The notes beneath the pieces are model-generated. The model searched no databases and had not been told where the DNA came from. It was given only the letters and a program-made list of their open reading frames with translations. From Microcoleus sp. bin48.metabat.b7b8b9.023 (GTDB lineage Bacteria; Cyanobacteriota; Cyanobacteriia; Cyanobacteriales; Microcoleaceae): 64,000 nt of DNA. Of the stretch, positions 8,212 to 62,731 are shown in pieces; within the stretch, counting starts at the first letter, position 1, and each line of letters begins with the position of its first letter. Made by a program: the position numbers and the translations under genes. The stretch covers positions 98,479 to 162,478 of the forward strand of contig NZ_JAAFKG010000007.1 of the NCBI RefSeq assembly GCF_013299185.1. Direction: 5' to 3'.

Positions 8212-11200
8212 TTACATACTCAACTCTGGTATTCCCCATATCCGAATAGTTCCATCACCATGACTACTAATAATTTGTTTTCCATCTGGGGTAATTGCAA
8301 GATAACAATTGCAATGATAGCTTGTGAAATACTCTTTGATAGAGTGAAGTTTTTCTCCAGTATTTAAGTCCCATATTTCAATAAAACACTCATAGGAAGA
8401 GTAATATTTTATGACTCTATAACCAGCCGATACAATTCTTTGACCATCTGGTGTAAGTGTAAGAGCTTCGACTGTTTCAGCATAACTCTTTAAAGTCAGC
8501 CGAACCTCTGGATATTTCTTCGCCGTTAAATCCCAAATTTTTATCGTGTTCTTATCATAGCTACTGATAAGTGTTTTACCATCTGGTGTAATAGCCAAAT
8601 CATAAATCTGTCCTAAATTTCTTCCTATAATAGTTCGCAATTTTCCGGTTATTAAATCATAGGATTTTATAATTTTCCTTCCCATAATTATTCTCTGTTG
8701 GTCTGGAGAAATAACAATACACTTACTATACCGCCAATAAAAATAGCTATAGCCTGATGAATAAGTTACCAAATTTTTTAATATTTCTGGGTTGCTTAAA
8801 TCCCATATTTGAACAATTTTGGAGTCTTCAATACTAATTAACTTTTGCCCATCTGGTGTAATGGCCACTAAATAAACTGGCTCTGAACAATGCAGAGAGT
8901 GTAGTAACTCGTTACTATTTAAATCCCAAATTTTAATGGTGCTATCCGCACACCCACTAACAAGCGTTTGCCCATCTGGAGTAATCGCAACACAGTGAAC
9001 ACAGGCTTCTAGCGTACTAAGTAACTCTCCGGTGTTTAAATTCCAGATTTTTATGGTATCGTCAAACCAATCACCACTAACAAGTCTCTGTCCATCTGGT
9101 GTAATAGCCAAAGAAGTATGAGTCAATACCGAATTACGATCTAAATCACTATCAAAATGACCATCAAGGACATTAAGACACTCAAAATATTGATAGGGAT
9201 TGTTTTCAACAGCCAAAACAAAGACATCAGCAGAAGCGCTTAAGTTTGCACTCGCTTCATTAAAACAGAAACGACTTATAGAGAAGAAAACCCTACCTAC
9301 TAACTTTTGCAGCTTTTTCAAAAACCATCCGTCTAAAGCTGCATAAAAATCTAATACATTTGGATCTACTGTATCAATATCTGTTGTTTGATCTACCTCT
9401 ATATCTAGTTGTTCGTCAGCTTCTACTATCGTATCCGTCTCTTGAATTGCCTCGAATTCCTCTGTACTTCTATCTAACTTTTGTGTCTCATCAACTATTG
9501 AATCATCTAAATTTTCCTCGGTATCTGTTGAACCTGAATCTAAAGCAAATATTTCTTGGAGCAGCATTTCATAGGAAATTAAGTAAGATATTATTCTGCT
9601 AGAAATTCCAGTATATAAAAACAGCTTTCTTATATTTTGCGTATACTTGGGAGCTAATTGAGATGTTGCAGTTACTTGAAAATAACCTTGCTCATTCTGG
9701 GTAAAATTTAATGTACCATCTCGATCGATTTCACCTCCGGTTGTTTCCCAATCAACCTCACCAGGCGCGATTGGACAGCCGAATTGATCTAATCCTTTAA
9801 CAACAAAGGTTTGTTGTTCGCTTGATTTAAGATAAACAAAACCCGGTTGAACTTCTAAACGTCTTAAAACAGGCAGGAGAATAACTTTAGCTGTATCGCT
9901 AAATTTTCCCGATTTTGCGGTGACAGTAACTTCGCGCTTTTGATAATCGCCTTTAAAAGCTCCTTTATTGGTAATTAAGCCGCCAGTTGTACTGTTCCAT
10001 CTAACATTCGTTATTTCGTAAGAATCGCCGACTTGATCGAATCCAGTTACAGTAAAAGTAAATGCTTCTTCTGGTTTAATTTCTACCTGTTCAGGAGATA
10101 TTTTTATCCCTCTCAGAACAGGAATAACAGTAACTTCAGCGTTAGCGCTTAAATGTCCTACATTGACGGTTACTTGAGAATCACCTTTTTGCTGTTCTCC
10201 ACTGCAAAAATTACCATTTTGATCGATTGAGCCCTCTGTTGCATTCCATTCTATATTGCTGACAGATATTTCTTCACCTCGTTGATTTAAAGCAACCAGG
10301 TTAAATCTTTGGCTTTGTCCTGGTTCTAAAGTAACAGATGAAGGTAAAATCTCTATATATGTTAACCGAGAAGGTTCGTAAACTTTAACTTCTGTGCAAG
10401 TGTTAATTGTCCCTACACTGGCTTTAATAATAACAGTGTCTTCTCGGTCGCCCGCATAAAATACACCCCGATTATCAATGTTTCCACTAATTGCTGACCA
10501 AGTAACTTTTCTAGCTTTTATATTGTTACCATACTGATCTACTCCCTTAACTTGAAACTGAAAATTCTGACCAAACTCTAGTTGAGGTATTGAGGACGTA
10601 ATAATTAGTTCTGTTAGCTTCGGAGGTTCAATAATCGTAATTGGGATAACTCGACGAATTGAACTAACTGAAGCGATAACTTCAAAGTTTCCTTGCTTGC
10701 TTCCAGCTATAAAATTGCCATTTTGGTTAATTGTTCCACCTCCGCTACTTGCTGACCAAGTAATTCTCCCAGTTTGTATGCTGTCACCATACTGATCTAC
10801 TCCTTTAACTTGAAACTGAAAAATCTGACCAAACTCTAATTGAGGTGTTGAAGATATAATAATTAGTTCTGCTAGTCTCGGAGGTTCAATAATCGTAATT
10901 GGAATAACTCGACGAATTGAACTAACTGAAGCTATGATTTCAAATTTACCTTGCTTGCTTCCAGCTATAAAATTGCCATTTTGCTCCATTTTCCCCCCTC
11001 CGCTTACTTCCCATAATACAGTTTCCTGCATGGGATTTCTGCGTTGATCTAAAACTTGTGCTGTGAATTGTTGCGTTTTACCAAACTCTAAAGTAATACT
11101 AGAGGGAGCAAAAGAAATATCAGTGATTCTCGGAGTCTGAATAATAGTAATTGTGACAGAAGTCTCAAAAATGCCTATCTTTGCTTTAACTTCAAATCTT

Positions 11201-24962: not shown

Positions 24963-24963
24963 A

Positions 24964-25170
24964 CAGTTGACAGCGTTAATCAGTTGACAGTTGACAGTTG
25001 ACAGTTGACAGTTGACAGTTGACAGTTGACAGTTGACAGTTGACAGTTGACAGTTGTTAGTAGGAATCACCAATTCCCAATTCCCAATTCCTGATGCCCG
25101 ATGCCCAATTCCTGATGCCCAATTCCCAATTCCCGATGCCCAATTCCCAATGCCCAATTCCCAATTCCCA
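24964..25170 (+). repeat. TTGACAG heptamer tract and CCCAATT/CCTGATGC repeats
   Basis: About ten TTGACAG copies (24981-25055) are followed by degenerate CCCAATTCC, GATGCCC and CCAATGCC units up to 25170. This immediately precedes the hisA start codon, so hisA's leader, if any, is made of short tandem repeats. Similar tracts lie at 17176-17207 and 38231-38284. Confidence 0.85.
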
Positions 25171-25176
25171 AATATT

Positions 25177-42256: not shown

Positions 42257-42384
42257 CACAATGATTCGATCGCACTATTGGTTTAGTTTGGCAATTTAAG
42301 AAAAATATTGCTCCCTGACTTCTTCCTGCATTTACACCGAGCCCGCTAGTTATTAAGATTGAAAAAAATACAAAAGGGGTGGTT

Positions 42385-45300
42385 ATGTTCGATCGCGCTC
42401 AATTGATTTTAGCTGGAATGTCGATCGCGCTTTCGCTTCATTTAAGTCAGCCAGCAGCAGCGATGCCCGTTGGCAAAGTCGAACAAACAGCACAAACTAA
42501 CAGTATTGATGCTGCCTACTCAGCATTAAAAGAGGGACGGCTGCTCTACCAGCAAGGAACGGTAGAATCGAAAAAAAGTGCTTTAGCCCAGTTTGAAATA
42601 GCATTAAAATTGTTTCGGGAAGCGGGCGATCGTTCTGGAGAAGCTGTTACCCTCAGCAACATCGGTTTAGTTTACTCAGATTTAGGGGAACCGCAAAAAG
42701 CTTTAGAATATTACGATCGCTCCCTGCCCTTAAGTCGTGCCGTTGGCGATCGAGCGCAGGAAGCTGTTACCCTCAACAACATCGGTTTAGCTTACTCAAA
42801 TTTGGGAGAACCACAAAAAGCTTTAGCAGCTTATAACCAATCCCTGCCTCTGAGTCGTGGCGTTGGCGATCGCTTTCAGGAAGCTATTACCCTCAACAAC
42901 ATCGGTGTAGTTTACTCAAACTTGGGAGAACAACAAAAAGCTTTAGAATATTACGATCGATCGCTTCCCCTGAGTCAAGCCACCGGCAATCGATTGCAAG
43001 AATCTAATACCCTCAACAACATTGGTTTAGTTTACTCAAAGTTGGGAGAACAACAAAAAGCTTTAGCAGCTTATAACCTATCTCTGCCCTTAAGTCGGGA
43101 AATCGGCAATCGCTTTCAGGAAGCTATTATCCTCAGCAACATCGGTTTAGCTTACTCAAATTTGGGAGAACCACAAAAAGCTTTAGCAGCTTATAATCAA
43201 TCCCTATTTTTGAGTCAGGCCGTCGGCAATCGAGGGCAGGAAGCTATTACCCTAAATAACATCGGTTTAGTTTACTCAAATTTGGGAGAACCACAAAAAG
43301 CTTTAGCAGCTTATAACCAATCCCTACCTCTGAGTCGAGCCGTTGGCGATCGAGCGCAGGAAGCTATTACCCTCAACAATATCGGTTTAGTTTACTCAAA
43401 TTTGGGAGAACCACAAAAAGCTTTAGCAGCTTATAACCAATCCCTACCTCTGAGTCGGGCTGTTGGCGATCGCTCGCAGGAAGCTATTACCCTCAACAAC
43501 ATCGGTTTACTTTCCTCAAATTTGGGAGAACCACAAAAAGCTTTAGCAGCTTATAACCAATCCCTACCTCTGAGTCGGGCCGTCGGCAATCGCTTTCAGG
43601 AAGCTATTACCCTCAACAATATTGGTGTAGTTTACTTACAATTAGAAGAACAACAGAAAGCACTAAAATATTACAGTCAGTCGCTTCTCCTGCGTCGGGC
43701 AGTAGGCGATCGCTCTGGAGAAGCTCTCACCCTTTACAGTATAGCTTTTCTCAAACGGACTCTCGGAAATCTTCCCGAAGCCATCAATAACATGGAATCT
43801 TCTATCCAAATAATCGAAAATCTCCGCACCAAAATTACCAGCCCAGAACTTCGCACCTCATACTTTGCCACAGTACAAAACTACTACGAATTCTACATCG
43901 ATTTGTTAATGCAACTGCATAAAACTAATCCTAAATTCGGTTACGATACCAAAGCCCTAGAAGCCAGTGAACGTTCGAGGGCCCGCAGCCTCCTAGAACT
44001 CCTCCAAGAAAGTAATGCCAACATTCGCGAAGGCATTTCTCCCGATTTATTGCAACAAGAAAAGAGTTTGCAACAGCAATTAGACGCCACAGAAAAACGG
44101 CGCATCGAATTAATCAGCAGCCCCAATCCCAATGCAGATTTAGTTGAAGCGACCGACAAAAAACGCCTGGAATTACTGCAACAATACCAGCAAAATCAAA
44201 CCCAAATTCGCAGCACCAGTCCCCGCTATGCTTCCCTCACTCAACCCCAACCTTTAACGCTGCCAGAAATCCAAAAACAGATTCTTGATGACAATACTAT
44301 TTTATTGCAATATTCCCTCGGCGAAGACCGCAGTTATTTGTGGGTTGTGACAGCTACTGGAATCACCAGCTACGAACTTCCCAAACGCGCCGATATTGAA
44401 ACAGCAGCCCGGAATTTCCGAAACACTGTAACTGACGGCCGTTACAGAGAGATACCGAAAAGAGTTGCCGAGGCAAGTACAGCTTTGAGTGAGTTAATTT
44501 TACAGCCAGCCTCCGCGCAGTTAGGACAAAAACGCCTATTAATTGTTCCCGACGGCGTGCTGCACTATACTCCTTTTGCAGCTTTATCACTGACACAGGC
44601 AGCAGAACAAAATGCTAGTAATTTCTTAATTGCCCGACATGAAATTATTACCTTGCCTTCCGCATCAACTCTCGGTATTCTCCGGCAAAATTACGCGGAC
44701 AGAAAACAGCCAAGTCGAACTTTAGCAATTTTAGCCGATCCGGTTTTCAGTCTAGATGATGAAAGAGTCAAAGGTAAAGTTACTCAAGCAACGACCGAAA
44801 AGTTAGAATCAAATAACCTCGGTTTAAATCGATCCAGCCGCGCTTCCAATCTAGCATGGCCGCCCACACGCCTGCCTTTTACGCGCAAAGAAGCCGACAT
44901 AATATTAAGTTTAGTACCTTCAGTTGCTAGAACTCAACAATTTGATTTTGCAGCCAGTCGCACTACCGCTACCGATCGCAGTTTAGCCAATTATCAAATC
45001 GTTCACTTCGCCACCCACGGCATCGCCAATAGCAAAAATCCCGAACTGTCAGGAATTATGATGTCGATGGTGGATGACAAGGGCAATCTTGTAAATGGCT
45101 TCTTGCGACTGAATGATATTTTCAACTTGAAACTGGCAGCAAATTTAGTCGTTTTAAGTGCTTGTCAGACAGGATTGGGGCAGAACATTCAAGGTGAGGG
45201 AATGGTGGGATTGACAAGGGGTTTCATGTATGCGGGGGCGCAGCGGGTAGCGGTGAGTTTGTGGAATGTGGACGATGAAGGAACTTCTTTATTGATGCAA

Positions 45301-45441
45301 AAATTTTATCAGAAAATGCTGCTACAAAAGTTACCACCTGCCGCAGCTTTGAGGGCGGCGCAGATGGAAATGATGCAGCAGGAACCATGGAAGTCTCCCT
45401 ATTATTGGGCTGCTTTTACCCTTCAGGGCGAGTGGAAATGA
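42385..45441 (+). CDS. Exported TPR-CHAT caspase-like protein
   Basis: 1,018 residues from ATG 42385, which follows AAAGGGG; a GTG six bases earlier is in frame. The N-terminus ([20 protein letters not shown]) reads as a signal peptide. Ten 40-residue TPR units (~85-470; consensus [19 protein letters not shown]) are followed by a coiled stretch (~540-625) and a C-terminal CHAT domain with the caspase-like dyad H878 (HFATHG) and C927 (LSACQTG), then [14 protein letters not shown] proteases cleave partner proteins in signalling or defence; here the partner is unknown. Units 6-8 are almost identical at DNA level. Flanked by remnants of its own ends and by a toxin-antitoxin pair. Confidence 0.92.
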
Positions 45442-45521: not shown

Positions 45522-45646
45522 CTTTTATGAGTTCAAAGTTGTGAAATTTATGAATAGACTTTAAGTTCAGCCTGCCCTACAATGACGATCGAGTGGTGCG
45601 ATCAGGTAAATCAACCGCATCAAAAACTATTATTGGGTTGCGACTT

Positions 45647-46270
45647 ATGGAAAATCGATTGACTGAGACTCAACTAACGCAAATAGTAGGTGAAGTAGAA
45701 CGCCTTTCTAACCTCCAAAAAACTCAGCTTGACTCTGCAGAAGTCAAAGAAATTTTGCAGGAATTGAATTTGCCTCCAGAGTTGCTAGATGAAGCTTTAA
45801 TCCAGTTGCAGCGTCGCGAAGCGTTGGCTCGACAGCAGAAGCGAAATCGTTGGATTGCAGGAGGATTGGCTGCGGCTGTGGCAGGGGCGATCGCAATTAC
45901 CGGATTTTACATCCAACAAAGTCAACAAGCCCTCGATCGCATTTCGGTGCAACAAAACCGCATAACTTCCGTGCAGGATGATGGCGGCAATTTGACTGTT
46001 ATTTCCCGCCAAAACAATCCCGAAATCTTTTACCGTACTACATTAAAAGATGCACCATTAGGCAAAAAACTATCGATATCCTGCGATTGGATCGATCCTA
46101 GTGGTCAAGTTGTCAAACAAAACCGCTATCAAACTCGCGAAATCGACAAACCCATCTGGAATACTCAATGCCGCCACCAAATTGGTACTGCTGCTGCTAC
46201 CGGAAATTGGCAAGTTAAAATGTTTCTTGAAAATCGCGCGATCGGCAGTAAATCCTTTCAAGTCAAATAA
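45647..46270 (+). CDS. Membrane-anchored hypothetical protein
   Basis: 207 residues from ATG 45647 (an in-frame GTG at 45593 adds 18 unlikely residues). Residues ~1-65 are a helical cytoplasmic part (ENRLTETQLTQIVGEVERLSNLQKTQLDSAEVKEILQELNLPPELLDEAL), followed by a transmembrane helix (WIAGGLAAAVAGAIAITGFYI, ~70-90) and an extracytoplasmic beta domain (GKKLSISCDWIDPSGQVVKQNRY ... GNWQVKMFLENRAIGSKSFQV). The last part resembles small immunoglobulin-like folds. No family assigned; downstream of the TPR-CHAT gene on the same strand. Confidence 0.6.
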   Translation: MENRLTETQLTQIVGEVERLSNLQKTQLDSAEVKEILQELNLPPELLDEALIQLQRREALARQQKRNRWIAGGLAAAVAGAIAITGFYIQQSQQALDRISVQQNRITSVQDDGGNLTVISRQNNPEIFYRTTLKDAPLGKKLSISCDWIDPSGQVVKQNRYQTREIDKPIWNTQCRHQIGTAAATGNWQVKMFLENRAIGSKSFQVK

Positions 46271-46365: not shown

Positions 46366-48198
46366 ATGACAATCACCAAACCGCGTCAATTTGTCGGATA
46401 CTGGGGCTGCGACTCTCGCCAGAAATTAGAATCGCTGCTGGCGAAAATTATCAACCAATCTGGGAGACAAATTCCTGTTCCAAAAGTTGAGAATTCCTCC
46501 AATTTTACCACAGTAGACAGCCCAAATCCCCCTATTTGGAATGTTGCCAGTAGCGAATGCGATCGCCCGCAGCACTTGCCAACCCAAAAAAGCGCTAAAA
46601 CTTGGCAGATCTCTGCCCTCTCAGCATCTGGACTATCTACCTATCCATCAACCAACGGCTTGCTATTACCCGATGCCTGGGCAAACGTCCGCGAAAATTG
46701 CCTAATTTTGGGACGAGAACCCTTTGGGCGAGTAACACTTTACTGGACGCAAATCGAGCAGAGTATTTGGTTCTCATCGAATATACAACTATTATTAAAT
46801 ATTTGCAAAAAACCAGATATTAGCATTCCTGGCTTGTACGGGTATAGCTGTTTTTCCTACGTTCCAACTCCCTTAACTCCCGTAGAAAATGTGTTCGCAG
46901 TTCCCGCCGGAACCGAATTGACATGGGAGTGCGATCGAGATACGGGTGTCATTCTTGAACCCAAATCAAAACGCTTGTTAGAATGGCGAGAAAGTTCAGA
47001 AGAAATACAAGACGAAGTAGAAGCAATAACACAATTGCAAAGCTTACTTAAAGATGCCGTTGAACGTCAAATTTCGGACATCAATAGCAATGAAACAGTC
47101 GGAGTATTTCTGTCAGGCGGTTTAGATTCCTCAGTAGTCGCAGCATTATTAATCAAAGCCGGAGTCAAAGTCCGCGCTTATACTCTCGACTTCGGCGATG
47201 CTGGAATTCCCGAATATCCTTGGGCTCAACAAGTTGCTTACTTTCTGAACATTCCCTTAGTCAAGGTAGATGCGAGTCCGCGCCGGATTAAACAAGCCTT
47301 GCATTCTGCGGTGAAAGCTTTAGATTTGCCCTTTGGTGACGGAGTGACAGTCCCGCTGTACCTGTTAAATGAGGCTGCAAGTCAAGAATGTGCGATCGTT
47401 TTTAACGGCGAAGGTGGCGATCAGTTATTTGCGGGCTGGACGAATAAACCTCTGATTGCAGCGGCTGTTTATCAAGCAGCAAATCCCGCCAAAGACCAAA
47501 CTTTTGCCTTGCAATACTTGCGAACTTTTCACCGTCTGTCGGGATACGAATCTAAAGTTTATCAGCCGGAATTTTACACGGAAATTCAGAATGTGCAGCC
47601 TCAAGATTGGCTGTTAGAGGCTCTTAATCCTTCTGTGGGCGCGTCTTTGCTGCACCGCCTCCGCCGCGCGGGTTTGATGCTGAAAGGCGCGCAGAACATC
47701 CATCCGCGGGCTGCTAATTTGGCTTTGGCTTTTGGTCTAAAAGTACGATCGCCCTTTTGCGATTTTGCCCTCACAGACTGGACATTTCAACTGTCGGGAG
47801 AACTGTGTTTGCGAGGTGCTTGCGAGAAATACATCCTCAAACGGGCGGTAGAACATTGGCTACCTGCGGACATAGTGTGGCGGGAAAAGCGCGGTATGGG
47901 CGTGCCCTTAACTTCGTGGTGTTTTAACGAATTTTGGCATGACATGGGCGATTGGTTGAATCCTGCCGTGTTACTGTCAGAGAAACACTGGAAACCAGAT
48001 TTAGCGGCTCAAATTATGTCCGGCAAATTCGCAGCCGGAATTCAAGGCAGACGCATTGGCGAAATGATTTGGCTGTTGGTGATGTGGCAAAATTGGCGAT
48101 CGCAAATTTTAGGTGAGGATGTGAAAAATAAATCTTGGAATCATCCGTTTTGGTTGCCTCGACAGGTTTGGAATTACCGCCAGCGGTGGCAAGAATAA
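46366..48198 (+). CDS. Asparagine synthetase-like protein without glutaminase cysteine
   Basis: 610 residues. The C-terminal half is an asparagine synthetase (AsnB) synthetase domain with PP-loop SGGLDSS (~250-256), then FNGEGGDQLFAGW and a C-terminal LAFGLKVRSPFCD and WREKRGMGVPLTSW. The N-terminal ~200 residues resemble the GATase domain only loosely and lack the Cys2 nucleophile, so it cannot hydrolyse glutamine there. Such homologues adenylate a carboxylate and transfer it to an amine (as in beta-lactam synthetase or lasso cyclase) rather than making asparagine. First gene of a three-gene unit with the LysA-fold and Toprim-like genes. Confidence 0.85.
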   Translation: MTITKPRQFVGYWGCDSRQKLESLLAKIINQSGRQIPVPKVENSSNFTTVDSPNPPIWNVASSECDRPQHLPTQKSAKTWQISALSASGLSTYPSTNGLLLPDAWANVRENCLILGREPFGRVTLYWTQIEQSIWFSSNIQLLLNICKKPDISIPGLYGYSCFSYVPTPLTPVENVFAVPAGTELTWECDRDTGVILEPKSKRLLEWRESSEEIQDEVEAITQLQSLLKDAVERQISDINSNETVGVFLSGGLDSSVVAALLIKAGVKVRAYTLDFGDAGIPEYPWAQQVAYFLNIPLVKVDASPRRIKQALHSAVKALDLPFGDGVTVPLYLLNEAASQECAIVFNGEGGDQLFAGWTNKPLIAAAVYQAANPAKDQTFALQYLRTFHRLSGYESKVYQPEFYTEIQNVQPQDWLLEALNPSVGASLLHRLRRAGLMLKGAQNIHPRAANLALAFGLKVRSPFCDFALTDWTFQLSGELCLRGACEKYILKRAVEHWLPADIVWREKRGMGVPLTSWCFNEFWHDMGDWLNPAVLLSEKHWKPDLAAQIMSGKFAAGIQGRRIGEMIWLLVMWQNWRSQILGEDVKNKSWNHPFWLPRQVWNYRQRWQE

Positions 48199-48302
48199 AA
48201 GCAACATTTTTTGTGAATCCTTCCTCTTCTCTTACTTCGCGTTCTTTGCGTCTTCGCGGTTCGTTAAAAAAATCTTATTTGCAACTCAAATCAAACAAAT
48301 AT

Positions 48303-49532
48303 ATGCCAACAATTACCGATCGCAAATCAATCACCACAGCACCTCCTTTGACTCTTTCCCTAGCCCAAGAGCTATTAGCTACCTACGGTTCGCCACTTTA
48401 CGTTTATCAAAGCGACATTTTGCGCCGGACTATCACCCGCATTACTAACGCAATTTCCTATCCGCGAACTCAATTTTGCTTCGCCAGTGTTACCAACGGT
48501 AGCATCGCATTGCTGCAAATCTTTCGGGATAGCGGGTGGGGATTGCACGCCAATACACCGGGAGATATTTATTTAGGAATTAAGGCAGGTTTTGCACCCC
48601 AAAATATTGTTTACAGCGGCAGTAATCTGCACCGAGATGAGATGGAACAAGTTCTCAAATGGGGTGTCAAAACTCTGAATTTCGACAGTCTCGCTCAATT
48701 GCAGTTGTGCTGTGAAGTGTACCAATCTCTCAGGGAAAGCCAGCAGGCTTTAGAACCGCCCAGTCTGGGTTTGAGGCTGAATTTGCCCGAATTAACGGGG
48801 GAAAGTCGCATTGGAGTGCGATCGCCCGAATTTCCCGCAGCAATTGCGATCGCCAAAACAGCCGGATTAAAGCTAAGTGGCTTGCATTTTTATCGCGGTA
48901 CCGGCACTAATTCTACCGCAGCCTTTACTCAAGTAATTGATACCATAATTGCCGCAGCCCAGCAATTGCCAGATTGGGAATATCTCGACTTTGGTGGCGG
49001 CTTTGGCTATCCTTACCACAGCGGGGGTACAGCCTTTGACTGGGAACTATTTGGGGCAGAATTGACCAGCAGAATTTGTCAATTAGACCGCGCAATTGAC
49101 TTAATAATTGAACCAGGGCGATCGGTTGTAGCAGGATGTGCTACTTTGCTCGCTCAAGTTGTTTCCACAAAATGGCAGGAAGCTAAACAAATTGTCGGTG
49201 TAGATACGACTGTTGCTAATCTTTCAGTACCATCGGTTCATGGTGGTTATCGAGAAATTTGTACCTGGAATTGTCGGGATGCTCTACATTTTACTGATGT
49301 TTGTGGCAATACGACTTATTCGCGGGATTATTTGGGGAAAAACTGTCAACTTCCGGCTTTGACTATTGGCGAAATCCTTGGTATTTTAGATGTGGGAGCT
49401 TATGGTTATGCCATGTCATCGCACTTTTTGCACCGCCCCAAACCTGCGGAAGTGCTGTTAGAAAATAGCCAACATCGCCTGATTCGCCAAAGGGAAGATT
49501 ACAGCATTTTGCTAGCAAATCAAGTTTTTTGA
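48303..49532 (+). CDS. LysA-fold (PLP decarboxylase-like) protein lacking the PLP lysine
   Basis: 409 residues from ATG 48303 (an earlier frame start is within the previous gene). It has the fold-type III decarboxylase layout: GSPLYVYQSDIL, a barrel segment FCFASVTNGSIALLQIF, NIVYSGSNL, LHFYRGTGTN, DFGGGFGYPY, EPGRSVVAGC, and the C-terminal DVCGNTTYSRDYLG and DVGAYGYAMSSHFL. The lysine that normally bonds PLP (as in YAVKAN) is V63 here, although the phosphate-binding and other elements remain. It may bind PLP or an amino acid without standard decarboxylation, or act as a carrier or regulator. Starts 104 bp after the AsnB-like gene and ends 20 bp before the next. Confidence 0.82.
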   Translation: MPTITDRKSITTAPPLTLSLAQELLATYGSPLYVYQSDILRRTITRITNAISYPRTQFCFASVTNGSIALLQIFRDSGWGLHANTPGDIYLGIKAGFAPQNIVYSGSNLHRDEMEQVLKWGVKTLNFDSLAQLQLCCEVYQSLRESQQALEPPSLGLRLNLPELTGESRIGVRSPEFPAAIAIAKTAGLKLSGLHFYRGTGTNSTAAFTQVIDTIIAAAQQLPDWEYLDFGGGFGYPYHSGGTAFDWELFGAELTSRICQLDRAIDLIIEPGRSVVAGCATLLAQVVSTKWQEAKQIVGVDTTVANLSVPSVHGGYREICTWNCRDALHFTDVCGNTTYSRDYLGKNCQLPALTIGEILGILDVGAYGYAMSSHFLHRPKPAEVLLENSQHRLIRQREDYSILLANQVF

Positions 49533-49552
49533 ATCATCACTAGGAGCTTTTT

Positions 49553-50857
49553 ATGAAGTGCATTAACTGCCAAACTGACAATAAGTTAAAAGATCGCACG
49601 GCTAATAGAGGTCGCTGTCTACGATGCAGCCATCAGTTTGCTTTTGAACCGACGGCTATGACTGGTGTCAAAATAACTGACCCGATGTTTGCCAGGGCGA
49701 TCGCAGATATTTCGGTTAACGACACGCTGTTCTTTACCCCTAAGCAGTTATTTTACCTTTTAGATAGGCGATCGAAACCAAAAATTTCTAATTTTTTATT
49801 AACAGTCCCAGGATACCTATTGCTTAATTTCTGTTTGGGTATCTTTGGTTTTATCTTCACAGCAAGTTTTCTTTCTGAAGGAAGTATAGTTTGGATTGCG
49901 GTCGTGTTTGTAATCAATAGTTTATTGATTAAAGCAACTTTTACTGCTAGCCGTTCTAGCAAGTATCCGTACCAACAACGACAGAAATTTGCAAAGACTT
50001 TGCAAGTTTGGGGAGGAATAGTTCTGGTGTTCGGAATCGGTTTTAATCTGTTATCAAGTTCCTTTCCGTTATTTTTAGCTAGCTCTATTCTCGGACTAGC
50101 TTCTATCTATTTGAGTCGTCTAGAAATTGACAATAAACCTGCAAATAGTCAAAAGTTTACGATTGACTCAAATCAGTTTCAAGGCTGGATGAATACTTGG
50201 ACAAAAATTAACTCTCTGGCTAAAGTGCTGCCATCTCCCCGCGAGACAAATGAAAATGTCGCCGTTAGTCCCGATGTCAGCGCTTACAGTTTTGACAGAT
50301 TAGTTGTGTGCGATCGCCCGGAAATTGCCCAATTTTTAATCGCCAACAATTTTCACTTTGAAAACAACTGTGCAGTCCTCAGCATAACTGGATATCCTCA
50401 AAGTATCTTCGACATAACTATGCAAATGCTGCGCCGAAATCTAGACTTAAAAGTGTATGCTTTGCACGATTGCACTCCCAAAGGAATTGGTTTGGTTGAC
50501 CACTTGCGTACCAGTCCTAATTGGTTCCCAGATAACAGTGCGATAATTATTGATATCGGACTGCTACCCCGGCAAATTATGGCGGGTGGTGATAATATGT
50601 TTGTCTTAAGTTCTGAGCAAAATGCACAAGATGCTAGACAATTATTAGCCCAAATCCGCCAAGGTTTATCTGCTGAAGAATTGGAGTGGTTGGAATTAGG
50701 TAATTATGTAGAATTGGAATCCTTTAGTCCTCAAAAACTCATTCAAATTTTGAATCGAGGAATTGCTGGAAGTCGAGATTTAGGTAGCGATGACAGCAGT
50801 TTGATTCTGCTAGGCGGTACGGAGAGTTCTATCTATGTTGTTGATAGTTTTGGTTGA
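49553..50857 (+). CDS. Membrane protein with zinc ribbon and Toprim/Spo11-like tail
   Basis: 434 residues. N-terminal zinc ribbon (C3, C6, C22, C25); membrane segments at ~80-103, 110-128, 150-166 and 170-188; then a cytoplasmic C-terminal part. Residues ~250-325 read VVCDRPEIAQFLIANNFHFE, NNCAVLSITGYPQSIFD and LKVYALHDCTPKGIGLVDHL. This order matches the Toprim domain of topoisomerase VI-A/Spo11 (first acidic E257; then D306 with the second Asp changed to T308; GYP and PKGI motifs). It is a distant, inferred match. A membrane-held Toprim-like protein next to AsnB-like and LysA-like genes is unusual. Function unknown. Confidence 0.65.
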   Translation: MKCINCQTDNKLKDRTANRGRCLRCSHQFAFEPTAMTGVKITDPMFARAIADISVNDTLFFTPKQLFYLLDRRSKPKISNFLLTVPGYLLLNFCLGIFGFIFTASFLSEGSIVWIAVVFVINSLLIKATFTASRSSKYPYQQRQKFAKTLQVWGGIVLVFGIGFNLLSSSFPLFLASSILGLASIYLSRLEIDNKPANSQKFTIDSNQFQGWMNTWTKINSLAKVLPSPRETNENVAVSPDVSAYSFDRLVVCDRPEIAQFLIANNFHFENNCAVLSITGYPQSIFDITMQMLRRNLDLKVYALHDCTPKGIGLVDHLRTSPNWFPDNSAIIIDIGLLPRQIMAGGDNMFVLSSEQNAQDARQLLAQIRQGLSAEELEWLELGNYVELESFSPQKLIQILNRGIAGSRDLGSDDSSLILLGGTESSIYVVDSFG

Positions 50858-50903
50858 GGTTTTTATACCATATCCCCGCTCATTCAATATCGCAACTAAA
50901 TAG

Positions 50904-51094
50904 GTTCGTAGTGAGGACTTTAGTCCTTCCTCATCAAATTCAGAGGGAGCATCTCAGTTTTGATTTTATAGTGCTGTCCCCGAAGAGCGAGCTATCCAAC
51001 ACTCGCTCTTCGGGGACGATCGCACTGTAAAGAAATTGCTTTTTTCCAAAAGTGAGATGCTCGCAATTCTGAGGACTGAAGTCCTCACTACAAA
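50904..51094. repeat. Nested composite inverted repeat
   Basis: Outer arms are family B (GTTCGTAGTGAGGACTTTAG at the left; CTGAAGTCCTCACTACAAAC at the right). Next come GAGCATCTCAGTTTTG and CAAAAGTGAGATGCTC (one mismatch). The core is GTCCCCGAAGAGCGAG (50976-50991) facing CTCGCTCTTCGGGGAC (51002-51017), perfect. The element fills the gap between the Toprim-like gene and the convergent second AsnB-like gene and could end transcription from both sides. Confidence 0.85.
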
Positions 51095-51106
51095 CGTTAT
51101 TTGATA

Positions 51107-52861
51107 TTACTTATTACCTTGCAGCCAAAGTTCCAAACTCACCAACAACCACAACTTAACACCATAACGCCCCCAGGTATCTCCTTCATAATCTAACCAT
51201 TGACCTATCAAAGATTGATTGAAATAAGGAGCGATCGCAGCTTTTTTTGACAGCAACAAACCCTTAGCTTCTCGTTGCCAAAACTTCTTAAATCCCAACT
51301 GCACCGGAACCAACATTCCGCTTTTTGGTCTATCTAAAATTTGAGCGGGTAAAAGGTCGGCAACAGCTTGTTTGAGCACAGCTTTTTCGACAACTCCCGA
51401 CAGTTTGTATTCCGGCGGAATCGTCATACTCAAGTCAACTATTCGCTGATCAAACAAAGGCGATCGCCCGTGCAAGCCCGCAGCTTGAGTCAAATTGTTC
51501 ACTTTGGTCAAAATCTGGTCTGCTCCCTTAAACTTGATATTTAACGCCATTAATCGATTCAGATAATTGCCGCTAGCATTCAAATCCGCACTAAATACCG
51601 AAGGTTCTGCTTGCATCGCTGCCCAAATTTCCGGTTTTAAAAGTTGAGGTAAATCCGCCGCGCACTTTTGAAATGAAAGCAAATATGCTGGCAGTGCATC
51701 CAAATTTGTGACAGAATTGTACAAGCTGTTCATTAACATTGGTTGATTTTTCGGACCACCAAAACAAGGATCGCCACCTTCGCCGTTCAGAATTACTTCG
51801 ACAGATTCTCGCGCCATTCTTCCTAATAGCAAATTTGGCACTGTCAGCGGGTCGCCGATCGGATCGTCTAAGTAACCCATAGTTTCTGGCAACTTTTCCC
51901 ACATATCCCGAAAGCTAATTTCTAAAATGTGGTGTTCAGTTTGGCAGTGTTCGGCGACTAAACTGGAAAATTCTAATTCGTTGGCGCATTCTTCGCCAAA
52001 ATGAATTGAGTAACTGTGAATTGGCCGATCGCAAAATTGAGCAGCTAAAGCCGCGATGCAGCTAGAGTCTAACCCGCCGGAAAGAAAGACGCCTACAGGT
52101 TGATTTGCTGGCAAATATTCCCGGACAATTTCGTCTAAAATAGTTCGCAATCTCGCGCCGTGCCATTCTAAAGATTGTTCCGCCTCGACAACTTGTTCTC
52201 GCAGTTCCCAGTATGCCGAAATTGTCTCGTCAGGGAAGCTTAAAACGCATCCTGGACGCAGTTCTCGGACTTGCTGCCACAGGGTACGATCGCCCGGAAC
52301 GAACGAACAGCAGAGGTAATCTCGCAGGGCTGTGAGGTCGATCGCCCTTGAGTGGTATTTTGCGATCGCCCGCAGTTGAGGCGCAATCCAGCGAGTCGCG
52401 CCAACATTAGTGTAGTAGAGAGTGCGCGCGCCCGTGCGATCGCGCGCCAGCCGCAAAACCTGCGATTGACGATCCCAGACAGCAAACGCAAACATACCCG
52501 CCAACAGCGGCAAACATTCAACGCCCCAGCGTTCCCACAGTTGAGCGACTAATTGGCGATCGCAGCCCTGCCAACTACTCGCAGAAATGCCCAATTTTTC
52601 CAGCAATTGCGATCGATTGCTGAGCCAAATATCGCCAACAATCACAAATTTTTGAGAGGGACTGAGAATTAGCTGAACGCTTGGGTTAGAGCAAATAATC
52701 GCAATTTGACCATCTCGCCACGCTGCATCATCTGCGATCGCATCTATTTTCCCCCAAGCTATCCGCCAACTTGAGGCAAATTCAACCAGAGGACTTGGAG
52801 GAACTGAAATTTTTTGTTTTTGGCTACTCTTGTAATTCAGTAATGATTTTATATTGTTCAT
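51107..52861 (-). CDS. Second asparagine synthetase-like protein without glutaminase cysteine
   Basis: 584 residues from ATG 52861 (a GTG at 52915 is in frame). N-terminal GATase-like beta domain (~20-200) contains GDIWLSNRSQLLEKLG, LLAGMFAFAVWDRQSQVLRLARDRTGARTLYY, but the catalytic Cys2 is absent. The synthetase domain has SGGLDSS (261-267), YLDDPIGDPLTVPN, LNGEGGDPCFGGPKNQ and RPKSGMLVPVQLGFK near the end. It is closer to true AsnB layout than the gene at 46366, but with the same loss of glutaminase. Converges with the LysA-like/Toprim-like unit; same strand as a short-chain dehydrogenase upstream. Probably an amide-bond ligase of a shared pathway. Confidence 0.87.
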   Translation of the reverse strand: MNNIKSLLNYKSSQKQKISVPPSPLVEFASSWRIAWGKIDAIADDAAWRDGQIAIICSNPSVQLILSPSQKFVIVGDIWLSNRSQLLEKLGISASSWQGCDRQLVAQLWERWGVECLPLLAGMFAFAVWDRQSQVLRLARDRTGARTLYYTNVGATRWIAPQLRAIAKYHSRAIDLTALRDYLCCSFVPGDRTLWQQVRELRPGCVLSFPDETISAYWELREQVVEAEQSLEWHGARLRTILDEIVREYLPANQPVGVFLSGGLDSSCIAALAAQFCDRPIHSYSIHFGEECANELEFSSLVAEHCQTEHHILEISFRDMWEKLPETMGYLDDPIGDPLTVPNLLLGRMARESVEVILNGEGGDPCFGGPKNQPMLMNSLYNSVTNLDALPAYLLSFQKCAADLPQLLKPEIWAAMQAEPSVFSADLNASGNYLNRLMALNIKFKGADQILTKVNNLTQAAGLHGRSPLFDQRIVDLSMTIPPEYKLSGVVEKAVLKQAVADLLPAQILDRPKSGMLVPVQLGFKKFWQREAKGLLLSKKAAIAPYFNQSLIGQWLDYEGDTWGRYGVKLWLLVSLELWLQGNK

Positions 52862-53972: not shown

Positions 53973-54310
53973 AATAGATTAAACCTTCTGATTTTGATGC
54001 TTGCTGTGGCACGGAGTTAGGAGTTGTGAGTTATGAATTATCAGTTATGAGTTGAATGTTTTCGCGGTAACAACTCAGAATAGATAATTGTGGTAAAGGC
54101 TATCTAGTTTAGATATACCTAATTTATTTGTGGAGTTAACTCAAAACTCAAACCTTTTGAATCGTGGACGTGCGCGCAAGCTGAACTAAACTTTAAGTTG
54201 CCAGAAATCTGTCAGAAATCTGGTCGTTCAACCTCATTCAAGCAGACAAGCCTGACATGAGAAAACCTAGTCGAAAATCATTGCCAAGCGGGCTTTATTA
54301 CCGCTTTTTC
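53973..54310. other. Gene-free stretch before the tandem array
   Basis: Between the short-chain dehydrogenase start and the 54312 array. AT-rich, with GAGTTATGAATTATCAGTTA simple repeats at about 54025. No gene, RNA or clear promoter is seen. Confidence 0.5.
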
Positions 54311-54311
54311 T

Positions 54312-54845
54312 TCAGTCTGCGGAGGCAGACTTTGCTTGTGTAGGTGCGAATTTATTCGCCGAGTTATCTTCAGTCTGCGGAGGCAGACTTTGCCTGTGCA
54401 GCCGCGAATTTATTCGCCGGATTGGTTATCATTCTTCAGTCTGCGGAGGCAGACTTTGCCTGTGCAGCCGCGAATTTATTCGCCGGATTGGTTATCCTTC
54501 TTCAGTCTGCGGAGGCAGACTTTGCTTGTGTAGCCGCGAATTCATTCGCCGAGTTATCTTCAGTCTGCGGAGGCAGACTTTGCTTGTGTAGCCGCGAATT
54601 CATTCGCCGAGTTATCTTCAGTCTGCGGAGGCAGACTTTGCTTGTGTAGCCGCGAATTTATTCGCCGGATTGGTTATCCTTCTTCAGTCTGCGGAGGCAG
54701 ATTTTGCTTGTGTAGCCGCGAATTTATTCGCCGGGAATATTCACCGGGGTTTTATTACCCCTTTTTCTTCAGTCTGCGGAGGCAGACTTTGCCTGTGTAG
54801 GCGCGAATTTATTCGCCGAGGATATTCGCCGGGGATTCGTCGAAA
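54312..54845 (+). repeat. Tandem array of ~57-86-bp units
   Basis: Eight units start near 54312, 54370, 54435, 54500, 54559, 54617, 54682 and 54767, each beginning TCTTCAGTCTGCGGAGGCAG followed by ACTTTGC(T/C)TGTG(T/C)AG and GCGAATTTATTCGCCG. The last part forms a hairpin (GGCGAA...TTCGCC). Interrupted frames through the array (LQSAEADFACAAANLFAGLV type) are by-products. The array sits beyond the 3' end of the carotenoid oxygenase gene. Confidence 0.9.
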
Positions 54846-62272: not shown

Positions 62273-62731
62273 TGATTAGTGATTAGTCATTAGTCATTAA
62301 TGTCAACAAACAAGTCAAACATAGTAACGATCTGCTGTCTGACGATTAAGCTCTCGATCCCCCCTAGCCCCCCTTAGGTCGGGGGGGACAAGAAGCACTC
62401 AAAGCTCCCCTTGAGAATGCAGGAATTGGACATACTCAAAACCCCCCTTGAGAATGCAGGAATTGGACATACTCAAAGCCCCCCTTGAGAATGCAGGAAC
62501 CGGACACACTCAAAGTCAACCCCTACTCCCCTTCTTAAGGGGGATTTAGGGGGATCGAGCCTCGGCTATAAACGAGAAATACAAAGTTTTTCAGACAATT
62601 GTTGGCACGAATATTCTCTTCCTTCTTCCTTCTTCCTTCTTCCTTCTTCCTTCTTCCTTCTTCCTTCTTCCTTCTTCCTTCTTCCTTCTTCCCTCTTCCC
62701 TCTTCCCTCTTCCTTCAACTAGCAATTTATT
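62273..62731 (+). repeat. Repeat-filled spacer before ctaE
   Basis: Three 37-bp tandem units at 62398-62508 (CTCAAAG, CCCCCTTGAGAATGCAGGAA, TTGGACATA); the CTCAA...TTGAG pair makes each a small hairpin. C/G-run palindromes flank it at about 62358-62388 and 62520-62555. From 62617 to 62716 there are about fourteen CCTTCTT/CCCTCTT heptamers, ending 15 bp before the ctaE start. Confidence 0.85.

Follow-up and report, generated by a model that had tools for sequence, protein, structure and literature searches.

The DNA considered here is a 64,000-nucleotide stretch, hereafter the window, from Microcoleus sp. bin48.metabat.b7b8b9.023 (GCF_013299185.1, NZ_JAAFKG010000007.1, positions 98,479–162,478, forward strand), and it carries a set of five genes built around two AsnB-type synthetases, Asn1 and Asn2. 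Gene 1 (45647..46270, plus strand) encodes a 207-amino acid protein, its start within the open reading frame (ORF) 45593–46270 having been chosen from the family length of 207. Gene 2 (46366..48198, plus strand, open frame) encodes Asn1, in which a degraded glutaminase domain is joined to a domain with the PP loop SGGLDSS. It is followed on the plus strand by gene 3 (48303..49532, open frame), whose product has the fold of the diaminopimelate (DAP) decarboxylase LysA with Val at the position of the lysine that binds pyridoxal 5′-phosphate (PLP), and by gene 4 (49553..50857), whose product combines zinc-ribbon-like CxxC pairs, hydrophobic helices, a topoisomerase VI A/Spo11-type Toprim domain, and a disordered tail ending in SFG-COOH. 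Gene 5, encoding Asn2 with a GATase_7-like domain that lacks Cys2 and an intact PP loop, is convergent to the others (51107..52861, minus strand, frame open to 52915). A preliminary description of this DNA had recognized genes 2–5 as four proteins, all of which are indeed open frames where it placed them, and had described the first three as close neighbors on one strand, as borne out by gaps of 104 and 20 bases. Its proposal of an uncharacterized four-gene set stands insofar as the gene set is conserved; what it overlooked are gene 1 and the conserved C-terminal tail of the gene 4 protein.

The two synthetases retain a recognizable ATP-using domain, with Pfam Asn_synthase scores of 182 bits for Asn1 and 236 bits for Asn2, and all the superfamily features of the AsnB-type PP loop, namely, SGGxDS, GExxD, and the catalytic Lys, are present. 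The GATase_7 domain is reduced to a trace in Asn1 (20 bits, cut-off 25) and is clear in Asn2 (64 bits) but devoid of Cys2. Residues were compared across the 70 of 77 Asn1 ORFs and 46 of 54 Asn2 ORFs that passed a length filter. No Cys2 was found in any of them when C[GS][IV] was sought in the first 40 residues, the single hit in each type lying off the N-terminus proper, whereas none of these sequences deviates at the Glu and Asp of GEGGD or at the Lys of R-x-K, and the PP loop is almost invariant. The earlier assertion of two AsnB homologs that lack Cys2 but keep the PP loop is thus upheld well beyond the window. PP-loop domains of this superfamily form an acyl-AMP and then transfer the acyl group to an amine; because Cys2 is missing, the amine would have to come from free ammonia or from another amine.

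The gene 3 protein adopts the two-domain LysA fold, and Val63, counted from the Met at 48303, occupies the PLP-lysine position. A profile alignment pairs FASVTN, without any shift, with the YAVKAN of structurally solved DAP decarboxylases and sets Val opposite Lys, so that the substitution asserted in the preliminary description is confirmed both in the window and in 321 of 321 aligned relatives. In the same 321, Val, Ala, or Ile takes the place of the Arg that true LysA has in RPxxY. The lysine-less gene is under strong purifying selection, and dN/dS (the ratio of nonsynonymous to synonymous substitution rates) disfavors a decayed pseudogene. The Val-type proteins constitute a family of their own, whose members carry the names of several phyla and are still listed in databases as decarboxylases.

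The products of genes 4 and 1 are predicted membrane proteins, as judged from hydropathy and, for gene 4, model helices. Its Toprim fold departs from the canonical metal site: topoisomerase VI A and Spo11 bind metal through acids that include a DxD motif, whereas all 18 rows of our alignment (A2) have another residue at its second Asp, and 3 of the 18 at its first. The tail of the gene 4 protein, residues 411–434 (codons through the SFG end and stop at 50783..50857, plus strand), is modeled with a predicted local distance difference test score (pLDDT) below 50, and the C-terminal xFG-COOH is nearly strict, occurring in almost every copy examined; the final FG are the sole tail residues fixed across groups. 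In each of five comparisons, some of whose pairs are possibly paralogs, dN/dS is higher for gene 4 (0.24–0.38) than for the other four genes, and the gene 4 protein is tandemly duplicated in some loci (e.g., L039, L073, L082, and L113). The gene 1 protein possesses a single hydrophobic stretch, a membrane helix predicted from hydropathy at residues 69–89, and a C-terminal part that is weakly MG2/Ig-like (MG2, 18.5 bits, cut-off 32.8); an anti-sigma model scores 28.7 bits (cut-off 100), and no Pfam or NCBIfam model matches it above cut-off.

Conservation of the gene set was assessed in 81 loci, comprising the window and the best 80 of 161 relatives. Because an ORF encoding about 207 residues lies upstream of Asn1 in 67 of the 74 loci with enough upstream sequence, we regard the cassette as having five genes. 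Median gaps, which are affected by the start choices of a simple ORF caller, are 6 bases between genes 1 and 2 (n = 68), −13 between genes 2 and 3 (n = 72), and 38 between genes 3 and 4 (n = 65). Where 8 kb or more of downstream sequence is available (63 loci), Asn2 is present in 42, mostly convergent. No wider gene cluster is favored, as only the five genes recur among the context genes, any other neighbor being found in at most 19 of 81 loci. Co-occurrence in other genomes, on which the preliminary description had staked its proposal beforehand, was found: of 386 sampled genomes of the phylum, 39 encode the Toprim protein and 35 the Val-type LysA (E up to 1e-75), all 35 being among the 39, although these counts are not independent trials since the genomes are related. 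Of the four Toprim-bearing genomes outside the 35, three are the deep genomes G004, G018, and G038; in the fourth, G121, the match is reduced to 49 residues. Stop codons interrupt both matches in G385, and the copy in G123 (L126 8831–11860) is shortened, the C-terminal part of Asn1 and the N-terminal part of LysA being missing and the remains apparently fused. The whole cassette is also carried by plasmid Cy782202 of Gloeothece verrucosa PCC 7822, typed as conjugative (L150 5003–12056), whose proteins are 54, 51, 68, 49, and 58% identical to the five of the window and preserve FATVTN and the SFG end. Directly upstream of that copy lie a gene for a TIGR04222 membrane protein and a small PEP-CTERM-named gene.

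The gene set has been kept together across deep cyanobacterial branches. Five matching genomes (G004, G010, G018, G038, and G044) belong to a single class outside the main cyanobacteria, probably Sericytochromatia judging from the names of close relatives, in which 5 of 18 genomes match; P0254, encoded by G044, bears the name Cyanobacteria bacterium RYN_339. The gene order is LysA-like, Asn1, Toprim, Asn2 on a single strand in G044 and LysA-like, Toprim, Asn2 in G010, while the whole genomes of G004, G018, and G038 hold only Toprim and Asn2, and the sole LysA of each keeps its Lys. Farther afield, Streptomyces sp. NBC_01237 (L149 9450–15128) encodes three tandem zinc-ribbon/Toprim-type ORFs and an Asn2-type ORF scoring 496 bits against the Asn2 profile built here, all unannotated in the record, with neither a LysA-like protein nor a separate Asn1 in the 24.5-kb stretch. 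The Toprim/Asn2 pair therefore represents the widest core seen.

Since the two PP-loop domains are the only catalytic centers found intact by these tests, we tentatively propose, with a probability of roughly 0.4, that the conserved cassette encodes one membrane-tethered, ATP-driven amide-forming complex assembled largely from proteins devoid of key catalytic residues. We infer complex formation, chemistry, and subunit roles as follows. Asn1 and Asn2 would activate a carboxylate as an acyl-AMP and couple it to an amine not supplied by their own glutaminase domains; the LysA-fold protein would serve, without PLP chemistry, to bind and present a substrate resembling an amino acid; the zinc-ribbon/Toprim membrane protein could act as a scaffold whose flexible conserved tail grips the synthetases; and the gene 1 protein might link the complex to the opposite side of the membrane. 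The amide on an unusual amino acid that the preliminary description envisaged is likewise only a prediction. Several observations weigh against this proposal. Of the 63 loci that extend far enough, 21 have no Asn2, which means that adjacency is not required, and the lack of a Val-type LysA in G004, G018, G038, and the Streptomyces stretch means that the LysA-like protein can be dispensed with in some cases. The Streptomyces tails carry the motif GF[LM][ST]WP away from the C-terminus, and two of the three Toprim copies there retain DAD. Other AsnB relatives have likewise lost Cys2, the membrane location derives from hydropathy and model helices, and activity, interactions, and product are all predicted.

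Other explanations compete with this one. That several centers have lost key residues, and that gene 1 encodes one hydrophobic stretch and a weakly MG2-like part, would also suit an assembly of pseudoenzymes that senses nucleotides or amino acids and signals across the membrane, its PP-loop domains merely binding ATP; we find this doubtful, because a mere sensor would not need the checked catalytic residues that both PP-loop domains retain. The gene 4 tail invites a different proposal, in which the conserved Gly at its C-terminus, or an acid close by, is itself the substrate activated by the synthetases and is amidated or joined to an amine. C-terminal peptide amidation of the AsnB type is reported for thiostrepton TsrC, on which our literature search returned no paper. 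The near-strict end on a disordered tail, fixed yet belonging to the protein with the highest dN/dS of the set, and the tandem duplications of that protein are consistent with tail modification, which is nonetheless unlikely given that Streptomyces tails do not end in FG and that nothing in the tail besides the final FG is fixed across groups. Quite unlikely, too, is a bacterial tagging system unlike any described, where the synthetases would activate the conserved C-terminal glycine of the membrane-anchored pseudo-Toprim protein and couple it to an amine that the lysine-less LysA-fold carrier presents, the tail being conjugated or capped at the membrane.

Peptidoglycan offers a further candidate target, with the complex amidating or decorating meso-DAP or a stem peptide and the LysA-fold protein serving as a DAP reader. 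Precedents exist in the amidation of meso-DAP reported for the AsnB-type enzyme LtsA (PMC7920481) and for Listeria AsnB (PMC8554201), and LysA folds are reported to bind lysine or DAP. Nevertheless, LtsA is reported to depend on glutamine (PMC7920481), whereas Asn1 and Asn2 lack Cys2, and with the RPxxY Arg replaced throughout the LysA-like relatives, DAP binding via the usual residues is unlikely; we therefore rate this branch as improbable. Least credible by far is the notion that these are ordinary genes of asparagine and lysine metabolism, brought side by side by chance. It agrees with the database names (asparagine synthase, decarboxylase, or diaminopimelate decarboxylase) and is disfavored by the universal Lys-to-Val replacement, by co-occurrence across genomes, and by a second LysA elsewhere in the host genome (G000, contig C93, about 7.5 Mb) that retains the PLP Lys. 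The only two full-length Asn_synthase proteins of that genome are both in the cassette, with two short extra matches elsewhere.

Thus, the residues of the usual chemistry are missing from the glutaminase domain, the PLP-enzyme fold, and the Toprim domain of this gene set, while its ATP-using PP-loop domains keep theirs. Should amide formation prove true, the cassette would represent a ligase complex of a new kind; otherwise, it would still be a widely misannotated gene set whose function can be tested. The short conserved C-terminal tail is a testable feature.

Elsewhere in the window, ORF 42379–45441 encodes a 1020-amino acid protein with TPR repeats and a CHAT-like end by eye, containing 120-base (40-residue) repeats in 8.5 copies with an 84% match. 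A 66-base tandem repeat of 6.9 copies (54308–54733) separates genes for a short-chain dehydrogenase/reductase and a carotenoid oxygenase; a 258-base duplication (10483–11009, 87% match) lies within the ORF of a 1509-amino acid protein with WD40 repeats by eye; a 396-amino acid ORF (611–1801) appears by eye to be IS605-type TnpB-like, with a C-terminal zinc-finger motif; and many seven-base tandem arrays are dispersed over 6036–62716 (e.g., 24963–25056, 25070–25171, and 62617–62716).

No named system in NCBIfam, Pfam, PADLOC, or PHROGs corresponds to the cassette, and none is described in the titles and abstract openings of the literature covered, from which many journals are absent. For a defense system, no specific PADLOC model matched, the one hit being a weak QueC-type one of Asn1 (24 bits); PHROGs returned a general AsnB-type family and weak matches only, and a virus-borne origin is disfavored by a viral_contigs scan with A3, which yielded eight pattern matches and no relative. 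As the preliminary description had argued, a lasso peptide cluster is disfavored, on a comparison that covered the cyclase family and the core gaps: Asn2 and Asn1 score 184 and 48 bits against an NCBIfam lasso-cyclase cut-off of 525, and no ORF of at least 20 amino acids is common to more than two loci within the core gaps, to which the precursor search was confined. Carbapenam synthetase CarA and beta-lactam synthetase are AsnB relatives that share the absence of Cys2 with Asn1 and Asn2; a beta-lactam pathway is disfavored, since all 116 Asn1 and Asn2 sequences have the Glu of GEGGD where CarA has Tyr. The glutamine-dependent asparagine synthetase AsnB (TIGR01536) has in common with them the PP-loop domain, GExxD, and R-x-K, but they differ in lacking Cys2 and in having Asn in place of Ser directly before GEG, and their scores of 168 and 251 bits lie under the cut-off of 267. 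Compared with LysA (TIGR01048; 235 bits, cut-off 298) and BtrK, the gene 3 protein has Val for the Schiff-base Lys, Tyr for the stacking His, and Phe for the phosphate Tyr, and lacks the CE motif and the RPxxY Arg. The gene 4 protein differs from the Toprim proteins topoisomerase VI A, Spo11, and JetD in its predicted membrane location, its zinc-ribbon-like start, and its replaced second Asp of DxD. The XrtA/PEP-CTERM system, for which by-eye reading of the window ORF lists revealed no exosortase, pairs an AsnB-type amidotransferase (TIGR03108) with a LysA-type decarboxylase (TIGR03099). Its cut-offs are missed by the cassette proteins (256 and 145 bits against 817 for TIGR03108; 98 against 478 for TIGR03099), but the pairing of an AsnB-type with a LysA-type protein resembles the cassette, and no NCBIfam model matches Asn2 better than TIGR03108.
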